Shown here in pieces: positions 4,725 through 12,632 of a stretch of DNA of 21,675 nt (positions are counted from its first letter, which is position 1; every line of letters begins with the position of its first letter). Source of the DNA: a virus; IMG/VR virus record IMGVR_UViG_3300020473_000142, positions 1-21,675 of that record; one strand, 5' to 3'. The notes under the pieces were generated by a model that worked only from the letters and a program-made list of their open reading frames with translations, was not told the DNA's origin and made no database searches. Made by a program: the position numbers and the translations under genes.

Positions 4725-5633
4725 ATGGCTATTTCAAGAGCACAATTAGCCAAAGAGCTAGAGCCTGGCCTCAATGCTTTATTTGGCATGGAGTATGCGC
4801 GTTATGAAAACGAGCATGCAGAGATTTTTGAAACTGAATCTTCAGACAGAGCGTTTGAAGAGGAAGTACTAATCGTTGGTTTCGGTAATGCTGAAGTCAA
4901 AACTGAAGGGCAGGGCGTGAACTACGACCAAGCTTCTGAAGGTTTTACTGCCAGATACACCCATGAAACCGTATCACTTGCATTTGCGCTTACAGAAGAG
5001 GCTGTAGAGGACAACCTTTATGACCGACTTGGCGCACGTTATACCAAGGCTTTGGCTAGAAGTATGGCGCACAGCAAGCAGGTTAAAGCTGCTAACGTAT
5101 TGAACAATGCGTTTAGCTCAAGCTTTACTGGCGGTGACGGTGTTTCCCTGATCAACACAAGCCACCCACTAGCTGGTGGAGGCACGCTTGCTAATCGAGC
5201 ATCTACAATGAGTGACCTTAATGAGACCTCATTAGAAAATGCTTTGATCAGCATTAGTACTTTTGTTGATGACAGAAACATGATCTTGGCTCTTCAGGGA
5301 ACCAAGTTGATTGTTCCTCCTCAACTTCAGTTTGTTGCTGATCGATTGCTTGAAACACCTGGAAGGGTTGCTACAGCAGATAACGATATCAACGCTATCA
5401 GGAACATGGGTCTGCTACCGCAAGGTTATGCAGTCAACCATTTCTTGACAGACACTGATGCGTTTTTCATTCTGACTGACTGTCCTGATGGGTTTAAGCA
5501 CTTTGAGCGTTCTCCAATATCAACCTCAATGGAAGGTGACTTTGATACTGGTAACGTGCGCTACAAAGCTAGAGAGCGATACAGTTTTGGATTCTCGAAT
5601 CCACGCTGCGTATTCGGTTCTCAAGGAGCTTAA
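4725..5633 (+). CDS. Major capsid protein (HK97 fold, Mu gpT-like)
   Basis: 302 residues, led by the strongest ribosome binding site of the head module, AGGAGGT at 4711-4717. The sequence fits HK97-fold capsid proteins of the group often annotated as Mu-like gpT in marine phages: an N-terminal helix (AQLAKELEPGLNALFGMEYA), an E-loop-like region near residues 55-80, a spine helix with EEAVEDNLYDRLGARYTKAL (about 92-111), an LINTSHPLAGGG turn, and an A-domain strand LQGTKLIVPPQLQFVADRLL. There is no obvious prohead protease site. It forms the icosahedral shell, probably with the GroES-like and scaffold products upstream. A terminator follows eight bases after the stop, so the capsid message may end there. 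Confidence 0.87.
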   Translation: MAISRAQLAKELEPGLNALFGMEYARYENEHAEIFETESSDRAFEEEVLIVGFGNAEVKTEGQGVNYDQASEGFTARYTHETVSLAFALTEEAVEDNLYDRLGARYTKALARSMAHSKQVKAANVLNNAFSSSFTGGDGVSLINTSHPLAGGGTLANRASTMSDLNETSLENALISISTFVDDRNMILALQGTKLIVPPQLQFVADRLLETPGRVATADNDINAIRNMGLLPQGYAVNHFLTDTDAFFILTDCPDGFKHFERSPISTSMEGDFDTGNVRYKARERYSFGFSNPRCVFGSQGA

Positions 5634-5640
5634 AGCAGAT

Positions 5641-5664
5641 AGGGGGCTTTATGCCCCCTTTATT
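5641..5664 (+). terminator. Intrinsic terminator after the capsid gene
   Basis: AGGGGGC (5641-5647) and GCCCCCT (5653-5659) form a perfect seven-pair stem with a five-base loop, TTTAT, followed by a short T-rich run (TTATT). It starts eight bases after the capsid stop codon. The T-run is broken by one A, so termination may be partial and let some transcripts read through into the next genes. Confidence 0.8.
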
Positions 5665-5678
5665 ACTGGGATACACTA

Positions 5679-5737
5679 GCCCTAGCGACTGGCCCAGCAG
5701 ACGCTTACGAAGACTCTAGGGCGAAACCTTTCGTAAG
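5679..5737 (+). promoter_or_regulatory. Candidate H-type RNA pseudoknot leader
   Basis: Two inverted repeats interlock. GCCCTAG (5679-5685) pairs with CTAGGGC (5716-5722). CTTACGAA (5704-5711) pairs with TTCGTAAG (5730-5737), extended by a G-U pair between 5712 and 5729. The order stem1-stem2-stem1'-stem2' defines an H-type pseudoknot with loops of 18, 3 and 6 bases. The last loop is GAAACC, suited to lying in the groove of a seven-pair stem. The first loop can form a tiny CTG/CAG hairpin. The last stem ends inside AAGGAGG (5735-5741), the Shine-Dalgarno of the gene at 5749, so folding could control its translation, as the gene 32 leader of T4 does. Found by eye; not matched to a known RNA family. 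Confidence 0.5.
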
Positions 5738-5748
5738 GAGGAAACCTG

Positions 5749-6255
5749 ATGGCTCAGACAACTTTTACTGGCCCAATTCGATCCTTGTCTGGCGTTATTA
5801 GCGCAGGATACAACGGAGTTGTTAGCTTGACTGCTGATACCACTCTTACTGTCGCTGCCCACGCTGGAAGACCGTTACTTTGTAATGATGCAGATGGTAA
5901 GTTCACTCTTCCAAGCATTGTTGTAACGGAACCCACTGACAAGGGAGATCCCAACCAAACAGCCAATCTAGGAGCTCAGTTCACTTTTATAGTTGTAACT
6001 GCTGCTACTGACATGGATATTTTAACTGATGGCACTGACAAGTTTGTTGGTGGCATTTATACTGGTGTCGATGACGCAACAGGCAAGACCTTTATATCTG
6101 GCGCATCTAACGATGTTATTACCCAGAACGGCTCTACAAAAGGCGGTTTGGCAGGAAGCATCATACGAGTGACTGCAATAGCAAGTGCTAAATACGCAGT
6201 AGAAGGTTTGATACTAGGTTCTGGTACTTTAGTTACTCCTTTTGCTGACGCTTAA
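5749..6255 (+). CDS. Small structural protein, capsid-accessory type
   Basis: 168 residues beginning AQTTFTGPIRSLSGVISAG. A start of this form ('TTF-x-GP-x-+-S-x-x-G') is frequent in marine phage proteins encoded next to the capsid gene. The rest is Gly/Thr/Val/Ala-rich with beta strands: TADTTLTVAAHAGRPLLCND, a FTFIVVTAATDMDIL core and GSIIRVTAIASAKYAVEGLI at the end. It is probably a virion protein, perhaps decorating or stabilising the head. The AAGGAGG site (5735-5741), seven bases from the ATG, overlaps the candidate pseudoknot, so its expression may be regulated differently from that of the capsid gene. Confidence 0.66.
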   Translation: MAQTTFTGPIRSLSGVISAGYNGVVSLTADTTLTVAAHAGRPLLCNDADGKFTLPSIVVTEPTDKGDPNQTANLGAQFTFIVVTAATDMDILTDGTDKFVGGIYTGVDDATGKTFISGASNDVITQNGSTKGGLAGSIIRVTAIASAKYAVEGLILGSGTLVTPFADA

Positions 6256-8992: not shown

Positions 8993-9002
8993 GATATAGT
9001 GT

Positions 9003-9707
9003 GTGGCTGATGTCAAGGTTGCCTTTGATGGATGGAATTCTTCCTCTCATGGATGGGGCGAAGGAACGTGGGGTAATGGCGAAGCAGTACCTGGAGCAAC
9101 AGGGACTCTTGGCACAGTCTCGATTACGGCAGATGCGAATGTCAGCGTCACAGGCGTTGCAGGAACAGGGACTCTTGGATCGATTTCTGTATCCGCTGAT
9201 GCGAATGTCAGTGTATCTGGCGTATCAGGCACTGGTACTCTTGGTTCAGTTACGGTCACAGGCACAGCAAATGTTAGCCCTACGGGCGTTGCAGGTACGG
9301 GAACGCTTGGGTCAGTTACAGTCTCAGCTGACGCAAGCACTTCGGTCACTGGTGTGGCGGGTACAGGGACTCTGGGATCAGTTACGGTTACGGGTGCGGC
9401 GACAGTCTCTGTCACAGGCGTGGCAGGAACATCAGGGATTGGAAGTGTCACAACAATCACAAGTAACACGATTGAGGTCCAAGCTCCGTCAGAAATGGTC
9501 GGAGGTATTGGGTCGGTTACGTTTGATGGCGATGCGAATGTTTCAGTCACAGGCGTGGAAGCAGCCTGCACAACGAGCGGCGTTAATGTTTGGGGGCTTA
9601 TTGATGATAGCCAGACAGCGAATTGGGCAAGTATTGATGACAGCCAGACACCAGGCTGGTCAACTATTGATGACAGTCAAACACCAGATTGGAAAGAGGT
9701 AGCATAA
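9003..9707 (+). CDS. Repeat-rich beta virion protein
   Basis: 234 residues with a GTG start at 9003 and AGGAT at 8991-8995. Residues 1-28 include HGWGEGTWGNG, similar to a motif of the 16830-18719 protein. Residues 29-139 are five copies of a 22-23-residue unit (V-A-G-T-G-T-L-G-S-V-T-V-...-V-S-V-T-G), with degenerate units to about 185. The end carries three 11-residue repeats around IDDSQTPGW. Such repeats suggest an elongated beta fibre or a knob-bearing tail protein. DSQTP-W repeats near fibre genes are common in marine phages. A second same-strand frame is open over the same span, which I judge a by-product of the repeats. Confidence 0.68.
   Translation: MADVKVAFDGWNSSSHGWGEGTWGNGEAVPGATGTLGTVSITADANVSVTGVAGTGTLGSISVSADANVSVSGVSGTGTLGSVTVTGTANVSPTGVAGTGTLGSVTVSADASTSVTGVAGTGTLGSVTVTGAATVSVTGVAGTSGIGSVTTITSNTIEVQAPSEMVGGIGSVTFDGDANVSVTGVEAACTTSGVNVWGLIDDSQTANWASIDDSQTPGWSTIDDSQTPDWKEVA
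9087..9419 (+). repeat. Five 66-69-base tandem coding repeats
   Basis: Codons 29-139 of the gene at 9003 repeat with a 66-base period (first unit 69). Each unit encodes a G-T-G-T-L-G-S core and ends V-S-V-T-G. The bases are less conserved than the protein, which suggests an old duplication under protein-level selection. Confidence 0.75.
9600..9692 (+). repeat. Three 33-base tandem coding repeats (IDDSQT-x-x-W)
   Basis: Units begin at 9600, 9633 and 9666. Each encodes I-D-D-S-Q-T, then two variable residues and W. They form the C-terminal end of the protein at 9003. Confidence 0.8.
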
Positions 9708-12632
9708 ATGGCAACTTACGTTAATGACCTACGTTTAAAAGAGATCGCCACTGGCGATGAATCGGGAACTTGGGGTACGAGTACAAATACAAATTTAGAG
9801 CTGATCGCAGAAAAATTTGGGACAGGATCGGAAGCTTTGTCTGATGCCTCTACCGCGACCCTTACTATGGCCGATGGAGCTTCCGATGCCTTCCGTTCTA
9901 TGGCCCTAACCCTTACAGGTTCTCTTTCTCAGGCTTGTACAGTCACGTTAGCTCCAAATACTCTTTCTAACGTATGGGTGGTTCAAAACTCTGCTGGTAA
10001 CACAGTTACACTAAGCCAAGGTACAGGCGCAAATGTGGTCATACCAAACGGCGGTATCCGCATGGTGGCTACGGATGGTGCTGGATCTGGCGCGGCGGTC
10101 ACTGATGTACTCGATGTATTAGGCGGTACGGGCAACGTAGGGCTTGGTAGCGGTGCGTTTGGTACAGGGCTTACCACAGGTACAGATAACGTAGCAATAG
10201 GTGAAGCTGCTGGTGATGCGCTAACTACTGGTTCTGACAACACGTTTGTCGGTGATAATGCGGGTGGAGCAACAACTACGGCAGATAACAACACGGCAAT
10301 AGGTTCCGGTGCGCTACTTGTAAACAGCACTGGTGGAGCTAATACGGCAGTTGGAAGTAGAGCATTAACTGCTAACACCACAGGCGCGTCGAATGTCGCT
10401 GTAGGAGACCAGTCGTTAGAAGCTTCATCGACGGGTGATTCAAACACTGCCGTGGGAAGACAAGCATTAGAAGCTAACACCACAGCTAGTAATAACACGG
10501 GCATAGGAAGAAGCGCGTTACTTGTAAACACCACAGGTGCAAACAATGTTGCGGTGGGAGCTTTTGCCTTAGACGCAAACAGCACTGGCGCATCGAATAC
10601 GGCACTTGGATACAGAGCATTGGGTGCTAACACGACTGCTGCAAGTAACACGGCGGTTGGTAAAGACGCTCTTTTGTCTAATACGACAGGCACAGCAAAT
10701 ACTGCGGTTGGTCTTGGAGCTTTGGATGCGAATACCACAGCCGATAACAACACTGCCCTTGGCTATGCTGCACTGCTTTCAAACACCACAGGTTCAAACA
10801 ATGTTGCCGTTGGTTATGCCGCACTTGATGCAAACACCACAGGCACAGATAATAACGCTTTGGGATCATCTGCATTATCTGCTAACACCACTGGTGGAGA
10901 CAACAACGCTTTTGGCAAGCAAGTTTTAACAGCCAACACGACAGGTTCAGGCAATACAGCTATGGGCCATGCCGCTCTCGATGCTAACACCACCGCAGAT
11001 AACAACACTGCGTTTGGAAAGATTGCGCTAACAGATAACACTACAGGCCATTCAAATGTCGCAATTGGTGTTGCTTCATTAGATGATAATACTACGGGCA
11101 CAGGTAATGTAGGCGTTGGCATGAACTCATTAGGGCAAAATACAACAGCTTCAGGTAATACTGCTGTTGGTGACGAGGCATTAGCCTCTAACACTACAGG
11201 CACTGGTCTTGTTGCGGTTGGCAAGGATGCTTTGAAGACTAACGCCACCACAAATAACAACACGGCAGTAGGTTTTGATGCTTTAACGGCCAATACAGCT
11301 AATCAAAACACTGCGGTGGGTTCTCAGGCACTAATAACTAACAGTACGGGTGCAAACAACACGGCTGTGGGCATGAATTCATTGTTTTCCAACTCTACAG
11401 CAGCGAATAATACCGCTGTGGGTTATGGCTCGATGGAAAATAACACTACTGGTGCAGATAACGTAGCTTTTGGATCAGAGGCACTAAAGCAAAACACCAC
11501 GGGATCAAATAACACAGCTATTGGAAGAGCAGCATTAGACGGAAACACAACAGCGTCAGACAACATTGCTATCGGGCTTGATGCTTTAGGCGGGTCAAAC
11601 ACTTCAGCTAATAACGTAGCAGTTGGCAGCGGGGCTATGGCATCTAATACTAGCGGTAGTGGAGTTGCTGTTGGTAAAGATGTCCTAAGCCAACAATCAA
11701 CAGGTAGCTCTAACACCGGAGTCGGTTTTAAAGCTCTTGAGCAACTGACAACGGGAACAGGTAGCGTTGCAGTGGGAGGTGCTGCTGCGGATGCCGTAAC
11801 AACAGGAAATTATACAACAGCTATTGGTTATGCTGCTGGCACAGCTTTGACAACGGCAGACAATAACACGTTAGTCGGCGCAGGAGCTGGCGAAAATATG
11901 GTGGGAGCAAACAATGTTGCCATAGGTTTCAGAGCGCATACCGCCGATGGAGGTGCAAGTGCAGCAAACAATGTTGCCATAGGTGTAGATGCCATGAGAT
12001 TTATAGTAGGAGGCGGTAACAATGTTGTAATTGGACTAGAAGCTGGCGAACAAATGACTGGAGCCGAAGAAAATGTTGCGATTGGCTATCAGGCAATGGA
12101 TAGTGCCACTACAGCAAATGAATGTATTGTCATAGGAGATCGTTCTGACGTTTCTGCTGTAGATCGCAGCAGAGAAATTGTAATTGGCCCGTCATTAACA
12201 GGTGCAGGGCAAAATACTTTTGCGTTTGGAAAAAGCAGTATTGGAAGAGTTTATAATAGCTTTGCGACAGACAATAGTTGGACAAGAGACTCTGACGAAA
12301 GATTAAAGACAAATATAAAAGATGATTCATTAGGGTTATCTTTTATTGACGCTTTGCGAACAGTGACTTTTCAATGGAAACCTAATAACGAATTGCCTGA
12401 AACATTTGACGCTTATCAAGAAACAAACGAAAAGGATACAACAACTGTAATTCACGGAATGGTTGCTCAAGAAGTTAAAGCTGCTTTAGATAGTGCTGGT
12501 GTAAGCACTTTCAATGGGTGGAAAGAGTCACTAGACGGTGTACAGGGGTTGAGTTCAGAAGCGTTTATTTTCCCATTAATTAAGGCTGTTCAAGAGCTTT
12601 CCGCGGAAATTAAAAAACTTAAAGGAGAATAG
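9708..12632 (+). CDS. Tail fibre: YadA-head-like repeats plus S74 chaperone domain
   Basis: 974 residues. Residues 1-40 (YVNDLRLKEIATGDESGTWG) are a recurring N-terminus of marine phage fibres, probably for virion attachment. Residues 143-827 carry about 38 near-17-residue repeats of form N-T-A-V-G-x-x-A-L-x-x-N-T-T-G-x-x, matching the left-handed beta-roll repeats of trimeric YadA-type adhesin heads. A linker leads to residues 862-974, an S74-type intramolecular chaperone starting S862-D-E-R-L-K867, with an HGMVAQEV segment and a C-terminal helix. In that family the chaperone folds the trimer, then cuts itself off just before the Ser. The product should be a long trimeric receptor-binding shaft of about 861 residues. 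An AGAGGT site precedes the ATG. Confidence 0.88.
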   Translation: MATYVNDLRLKEIATGDESGTWGTSTNTNLELIAEKFGTGSEALSDASTATLTMADGASDAFRSMALTLTGSLSQACTVTLAPNTLSNVWVVQNSAGNTVTLSQGTGANVVIPNGGIRMVATDGAGSGAAVTDVLDVLGGTGNVGLGSGAFGTGLTTGTDNVAIGEAAGDALTTGSDNTFVGDNAGGATTTADNNTAIGSGALLVNSTGGANTAVGSRALTANTTGASNVAVGDQSLEASSTGDSNTAVGRQALEANTTASNNTGIGRSALLVNTTGANNVAVGAFALDANSTGASNTALGYRALGANTTAASNTAVGKDALLSNTTGTANTAVGLGALDANTTADNNTALGYAALLSNTTGSNNVAVGYAALDANTTGTDNNALGSSALSANTTGGDNNAFGKQVLTANTTGSGNTAMGHAALDANTTADNNTAFGKIALTDNTTGHSNVAIGVASLDDNTTGTGNVGVGMNSLGQNTTASGNTAVGDEALASNTTGTGLVAVGKDALKTNATTNNNTAVGFDALTANTANQNTAVGSQALITNSTGANNTAVGMNSLFSNSTAANNTAVGYGSMENNTTGADNVAFGSEALKQNTTGSNNTAIGRAALDGNTTASDNIAIGLDALGGSNTSANNVAVGSGAMASNTSGSGVAVGKDVLSQQSTGSSNTGVGFKALEQLTTGTGSVAVGGAAADAVTTGNYTTAIGYAAGTALTTADNNTLVGAGAGENMVGANNVAIGFRAHTADGGASAANNVAIGVDAMRFIVGGGNNVVIGLEAGEQMTGAEENVAIGYQAMDSATTANECIVIGDRSDVSAVDRSREIVIGPSLTGAGQNTFAFGKSSIGRVYNSFATDNSWTRDSDERLKTNIKDDSLGLSFIDALRTVTFQWKPNNELPETFDAYQETNEKDTTTVIHGMVAQEVKAALDSAGVSTFNGWKESLDGVQGLSSEAFIFPLIKAVQELSAEIKKLKGE
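10134..12188 (+). repeat. About 38 tandem 51-base coding repeats (YadA-like)
   Basis: The fibre gene repeats with a 51-base, 17-codon period. Units are regular up to about 11600, then drift in length (16-19 codons) toward the S74 domain. Recurrent codon strings such as AACACCACAGG and AACACGGC keep neighbouring units similar in DNA, which favours copy-number change by recombination. Confidence 0.8.

Follow-up and report, generated by a model that had tools for sequence, protein, structure and literature searches.

The gap between the major capsid gene and the following gene of the viral DNA analyzed here (positions 1–21,675 of IMG/VR record IMGVR_UViG_3300020473_000142, referred to as the window) appears to encode a pseudoknotted leader RNA, which very probably acts in cis as a translational control element of a capsid cement/spike gene. 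Sequence comparison gives good evidence that the element is real, and it adds a new structural variant to a little-studied type of phage leader RNA. A preliminary description, made from the window sequence alone, had proposed an H-type pseudoknot leader. A conserved pseudoknotted leader RNA is indeed indicated, but its architecture is not that of a simple H-type: two helices (P0 and P3) and a conserved junction had been missed. Many relatives share the fold, among them one of the commonest groups of ocean phages, and it constitutes a largely uncharted control element. If this reading is correct, a control point of capsid assembly has been overlooked in these phages.

Genomic setting and anatomy of the element

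The upstream neighbor of the element, a Mu gpT-like major capsid gene, is followed by a terminator-like hairpin (Table 1), in agreement with the terminator proposed earlier at this place, and a similar hairpin is found at the equivalent spot in relatives. No terminator was found in the window between the element and the downstream gene. The product of the latter has no match of its own in Pfam or PHROG. Its DSL-LC04 counterpart carries the annotation "cement protein", and its predicted fold (mean pLDDT of 80.6, from an alignment of the window and IMG/VR sequences only) has the capsid spike of Pseudomonas phage Pa223 as its best PDB match (E 1.4e-4, TM-score 0.44). PDB sequence searches gave no match for the capsid protein and no convincing one for the cement protein; a weak profile match of the latter (9ny6_C) is consistent with the fold match. 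We name the product a capsid cement/spike protein and infer its precise role. A search for the nearest annotated phage DNA returned nothing meaningful.

Among relatives, cement proteins range from 107 to 391 residues and keep the N-terminus M-A/G-x-T-T-F-x-G-P-V but little else, many of their bodies being unrelated. This arrangement, in which the motif TTFxGPVrS precedes unrelated bodies in the window product and its relatives, points to a capsid anchor that carries exchangeable outer domains. Farther downstream, positions 9708–12632 of the window encode a 974-aa protein that, by eye, contains long NTTGxNNTAxG-type repeats and ends in DERLKTNI..., resembling a tail-fibre intramolecular chaperone. 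Two long open frames overlap at 9001–9707 (9001–9702 and 9003–9707); they probably derive from a repetitive gene, and the 9003 frame looks like the genuine one.

Table 1. Coordinates of the leader element and its flanking features in the window; helix assignments are predicted.
Feature	Position	Strand	Basis or remark
Major capsid protein gene, Mu gpT-like / Phage_capsid_4	4725–5633	+	Pfam PF25209 3.5e-10, PF10124 4e-6; phrog_371 major head protein 5e-21
Terminator-like hairpin (stem 5641–5659) and T-rich tail, 3' of the capsid gene	5641–5664	+	
Whole RNA element, helices P0, P1, P3, and P2	5666–5741	+	
P0 5' strand, CTGGG	5666–5670	+	pairs with 5693–5697 in the P3 loop
P1 5' strand, GCCCTAGCG	5679–5687	+	pairs with 5714–5722
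P1/P3 joint, conserved A	5688	+	
P3 hairpin, CTG-GCCCAG-CAG	5689–5700	+	stem 5689–5691/5698–5700; loop letters 5693–5697 are the P0 3' strand
Joint ACG after P3	5701–5703	+	
P2 5' strand, CTTACGAA	5704–5711	+	pairs with 5730–5737
Joint AGA before the P1 3' strand	5711–5713	+	A5711 is also the end of P2
P1 3' strand, CTCTAGGGC	5714–5722	+	model R1 match 5679–5722, 51 bits
P2 3' strand, TTCGTAAG	5730–5737	+	overlaps the start of the Shine-Dalgarno sequence
Shine-Dalgarno sequence, AAGGAGG	5735–5741	+	sequence; start codon at 5749
Putatively controlled gene, capsid cement/spike protein, 168 aa	5749–6255	+	DSL-LC04 relative, fold match, conserved N-terminal motif TTFxGPxxS

The two inverted repeats described earlier are present: GCCCTAG (5679–5685) is complementary to CTAGGGC (5716–5722), and the two strands of P2 are complementary to each other. 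The two repeats are interlocked over a span of 59 bases, the latter one finishing within the Shine-Dalgarno (SD) sequence. The first loop has the 18 nt originally given (5686–5703), but the other two measure 4 (5712–5715) and 7 nt (5723–5729) instead of 3 and 6; the latter 7 bases separate the 3' strands of P1 and P2. In the window, P1 comprises 7 pairs followed by one C-U mismatch and one G-C pair, i.e., 9 positions. Sequence comparison shows that P1 encloses a small hairpin, P3, whose loop pairs with a strand 5' of P1 to form P0, and that the linker past P3 pairs with a stretch just before or inside the SD sequence to form P2. Since P0 involves the P3 loop and P2 is interlocked with P1, two interlocking pseudoknots result, and the junction that they surround has the conserved letters A, AC, and AGA.

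Perfect interlocked stems of this length occurred in 16 of 3000 Markov-resampled gaps (about 0.5%) and in 2 of 379 same-size segments, one of which is the gap itself. The stretch shows no unusual stability in a nested fold (z = −0.99), and an alternative nested structure of −25.8 kcal/mol, which includes a local hairpin at the SD sequence, is possible. Given this chance frequency and the unremarkable nested folding energy, the window sequence is not decisive by itself; the support for the predicted element is comparative.

Conservation and covariation among relatives

Six protein-led IMG/VR scans with capsid proteins yielded several hundred loci, in the gaps of which both repeat stems recur with different letters and two further helices are apparent. 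A descriptor search for P1 enclosing P3 with joints A, AC, and GA retrieved 192 elements; the set contains 164 distinct elements with the window form (types A and A2) and 20 with the form of Mu-gpT-DE (RF03012), an Rfam family compared below. About 160 distinct relatives hold the same fold despite unrelated letters.

In 43 chosen sequences, 97.3% of the P1 and P3 cells are paired, although this pairing, like the conservation of the junction letters, is partly built in because the descriptor demanded P1, P3, and some of these letters. Two-sided changes were observed at 11 of the 12 pairs, with 191 double changes versus 48 in shuffles, and the covariation score of 0.975 (0.226 in shuffles) collapses when the partners are slid by 1–3 columns. 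Taken separately in the same 43 sequences, P1 has 96.4% of its cells paired and varies on both sides at all 9 pairs, whereas P3 is paired in 100% and covaries at two of its three pairs. The P3 loop measures 6 nt in 132 of 164 elements.

P0 and P2 played no part in the search and are, like an unconstrained parse that made no demand on the joints, free of descriptor bias. In this parse, the joint letters were A in 48, AC in 42, and AGA in 38 of 51 cases. The best P2 helix has a mean of 6.17 pairs in native elements and 3.73 after linkers and leaders have been exchanged among members, and at least 5 pairs are formed in 92% and 18%, respectively. The 28 distinct complementary P2 helices include CTTACGAA/TTCGTAAG, GTATAG/CTATAC, ACATGC/GCATGT, TTGCATA/TATGCAA, CCTAG/CTAGG, and CTAACGAA/TTCGTTAG. 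For P0, the mean falls from 5.03 to 3.34 pairs after partner swap, and the share with at least 5 pairs from about 90% to 17%; about 30 sequence versions were listed, most of them 7–9 nt from P1. Spacing is also regular, with 3 nt between P3 and P2 in 115/132, 2–3 nt between P2 and the P1 3' strand in 128/132, and 5–8 nt between the 3' strands of P1 and P2 in 120/132. Compensatory changes in both original stems, a check that had been named beforehand, are thus borne out by the covariation of P1 and P2.

The contact of the last helix with the SD sequence of the next gene, likewise part of the preliminary description, is conserved among relatives. In these, P2 ends beside or inside the SD sequence, usually 9–13 nt ahead of the start codon. 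The SD core in many relatives begins just past P2 rather than within it, so masking may be partial. At the other end, a −10-like hexamer often lies 13–15 nt 5' of P0, and 121 of 164 elements have one nearby versus 56 expected; judging from its position in relatives, the transcript would begin at P0. No promoter-like hexamer was seen before P0 in the window.

A covariance model detected at most one copy per genome, before the cement gene, in HTVC023P, HTVC027P, DSL-LC04, and the IMG/VR genomes, the sole other match being at position 9319 of the window (E 0.91). Recurrence of the element before several genes of one genome was accordingly rejected. Other genes lie between the capsid and cement genes in 47 of 299 loci, where the RNA remains with the cement gene; it tracks this gene, and an assignment of the RNA to the capsid gene was rejected on these grounds. 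A protein-independent IMG/VR scan, which used the core letters of the RNA only, returned 80 contigs. By script, P1 was found in 78, a cement-type start in 76, and both an intact P1 and a cement-type start in 75. The remaining five comprise L543, which has a cement start while its P1 is shifted, L518 and L545, with cement-start variants added by eye, L519, with another ORF, and L498, which is truncated at the contig end.

Proposed function and alternative explanations

In the proposed mechanism, formation of P2 would leave the ribosome-binding site occupied or crowded and translation of the cement protein low. This would uncouple the amount or timing of the cement protein from that of the capsid protein, the transcript of which apparently terminates a short way upstream. 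With less certainty, the conserved junction would bind a factor common to all these phages, and the bound factor would shift the balance between closed and open forms. The capsid protein is the best candidate for this factor, since it changes little among phages that differ in RNA form and cement body; a host protein or a small molecule is possible. The free variation of the cement bodies, set against the constancy of the capsid proteins, makes the cement body less likely in this role than either the capsid protein or a host factor. Indeed, the downstream bodies are unrelated between phages; the encoded protein is therefore unlikely to exert control through its body, and autoregulation of this type is disfavored.

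In several relatives (L054, L058, L063, L121, and L163), the SD sequence forms part of an additional local hairpin (for example, TTTCC-GGAAA or AACC-GGTT). At positions 5727–5738 of the window, CCUU-UCGU-AAGG can form and would compete with P2. The local SD hairpin is a possible switch partner.

A broader reading, which we hold tentatively and place slightly below even, is that these RNAs form an undescribed class of ligand- or capsid-protein-sensing leaders, built of two interlocked pseudoknots around a shared junction. Mu-gpT-DE would be its reduced form, and the class would meter swappable cement/spike proteins in a very abundant ocean phage group. If the control element itself is as proposed, what tunes the supply of cement protein becomes directly testable in a cultured phage. 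The family also offers structural studies a large natural collection of double pseudoknots that covary.

Among the alternatives, the one that survives best, although we consider it rather unlikely, dispenses with sensing: 5'-terminal pseudoknots would set a constant translation rate and/or shield the 5' end of the transcript from decay. The hexamer 13–15 nt before P0 in many relatives would yield a transcript knotted at its very end, as this explanation expects, and the interchangeability of the two forms between near-identical genomes, described below, also agrees with it. It does not, however, explain the constancy of the joints A, AC, and AGA amid otherwise unrelated letters.

Another alternative is a metabolite riboswitch, in which a small molecule of the infected cell would bind the junction and lock or free the ribosome-binding site. 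A few invariant letters clustered at a junction amid varying helices, together with a pseudoknot reaching into the SD sequence, correspond to the anatomy of small translational riboswitches, and the junction letters recur in the Mu-gpT-DE form. Riboswitches usually precede genes of related metabolism, whereas a genome has no more than one copy of the present element, always in front of a structural gene, and no Rfam riboswitch reached threshold; we regard this possibility as distinctly improbable.

A trans-acting small RNA released between the capsid and cement genes would fit both the position between the terminator-like hairpin and the gene and the Rfam type of the related family Mu-gpT-DE ("Gene; sRNA"). 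It is nevertheless very improbable: the 3' helix uses the SD sequence or start codon of the gene itself and covaries with it, the element goes with the cement gene where other genes are inserted, and the window has no detected terminator between element and gene. Chance inverted repeats in a short gap, which would account for stems of such length in about 0.5% of resampled gaps, can practically be dismissed, since compensatory changes maintain all four helices across about 160 distinct relatives.

Comparison with known RNA elements

Rfam searches of the window and of 23 loci with the window form gave no family that reached threshold. Matches to freshwater-2, PhrS, STnc400, SNORA50, and IS1222_FSE are at chance level. 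Among them, the freshwater-2 model (RF02980) similarly ends in an SD sequence and ATG and aligned to the window including the terminator hairpin, but the score of 13.8 bits is far from the gathering score of 49.9 (E 7.1).

In phage T4, translation of gene 32 is controlled by a pseudoknot in its leader. The window element resembles it as a phage leader pseudoknot and differs from it in the gene concerned and in having a second pseudoknot; moreover, the diversity of the encoded bodies in the window family speaks against simple autoregulation by the body, as in an operator of the gene 32 type. SAM-II and preQ1 riboswitches are H-type and translational, and the 3' strand of their pseudoknot runs into the SD sequence. 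The 3' strand of the window pseudoknot also enters the SD sequence, but in the window another pseudoknot is present and the downstream gene is a structural gene of the phage, and the Rfam search gave no riboswitch match, SAM-II and preQ1 included, even at E up to 10.

The closest known system is Mu-gpT-DE. The element had originally been assigned to no known family; this holds in that no Rfam family matches, but a described relative exists that shares its core and genomic place. Loci with a nearly identical capsid protein carry RF03012 in the same gap, with scores of 66–72 bits. Both elements are located between a gpT-like capsid gene and a cement gene and share the core order P1 - A - P3 - AC - linker - GA - P1', with P1 enclosing one hairpin, the same first P3 pairs, and a linker predicted to pair with the translation start region. 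The differences are equally clear. The P1 of Mu-gpT-DE is short (4–5 pairs, CCTG/CAGG) with its 3' strand in the SD sequence, whereas that of the window (GCCCTAGCG/CTCTAGGGC) has 9 positions and ends before it. The conserved Mu-gpT-DE linker and SD sequence UAGCCAcGACAGGAGA is absent from the window, where the linker is GCTTACGAAGA. The window also has P0, and its P2 uses the stretch before or inside the SD sequence, while Mu-gpT-DE pairs with the start codon. RF03012 gave no match in the window at its gathering score (49 bits), nor in 5600–5800 at E up to 10. Because this score and two defining features are lacking, the window element is not filed as Mu-gpT-DE.

The Rfam structure of RF03012 consists of a 4-pair P1 and one hairpin. 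Among 79 distinct Mu-gpT-DE elements (for example, L005 3282–3334 and L087 3994–4046), the linker is GCC with GCN (Ala) as codon 2 in 52 and CCC with GGN (Gly) in 26, one being ambiguous. This covariation indicates a helix between the linker and the first two codons of the cement gene (UAGCCA with UGGCUA, ACCCA with UGGGU), which the Rfam structure does not contain. Mu-gpT-DE thus seems better read as a cis-acting cement-gene leader than as its Rfam type; if true, a family filed as "sRNA" acts in cis and has a start-codon helix that its model omits. Our literature search found one paper naming Mu-gpT-DE and not the original family description; that paper, by the CaCoFold authors, reports the database structure to be without covarying pairs (PMC7657543).

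Two other groups of loci carry different leaders. In the gap after the capsid gene of L007, L010, L011, L015, and L017, a small leader composed of AATGACGC-loop-GCGTTGG and then a hairpin around the SD sequence precedes a different-looking protein; this is perhaps a third leader type. L128, L157, L164, and L165 have a short leader before their cement genes that keeps "A - hairpin - AC" without a clear P1 (in three of the four, ATGACCC-TTCG-GGGACTATTAACAAAAGGAG); it may be a form that is reduced still further.

In a reverse search with model R1, Mu-gpT-DE loci reach only 12–16 bits, scores that alone do not prove homology. The proposed link between the two elements rests on their common anatomy and place and on intermediates, L054 and L058, in which a P0 of the window type is combined with the Mu-gpT-DE linker AGCC. 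Either form occurs with capsid proteins that are 99% identical (L174/L171) and with cement proteins that are 86% identical (L338/L035). The two forms therefore look interchangeable, and they probably do the same job.
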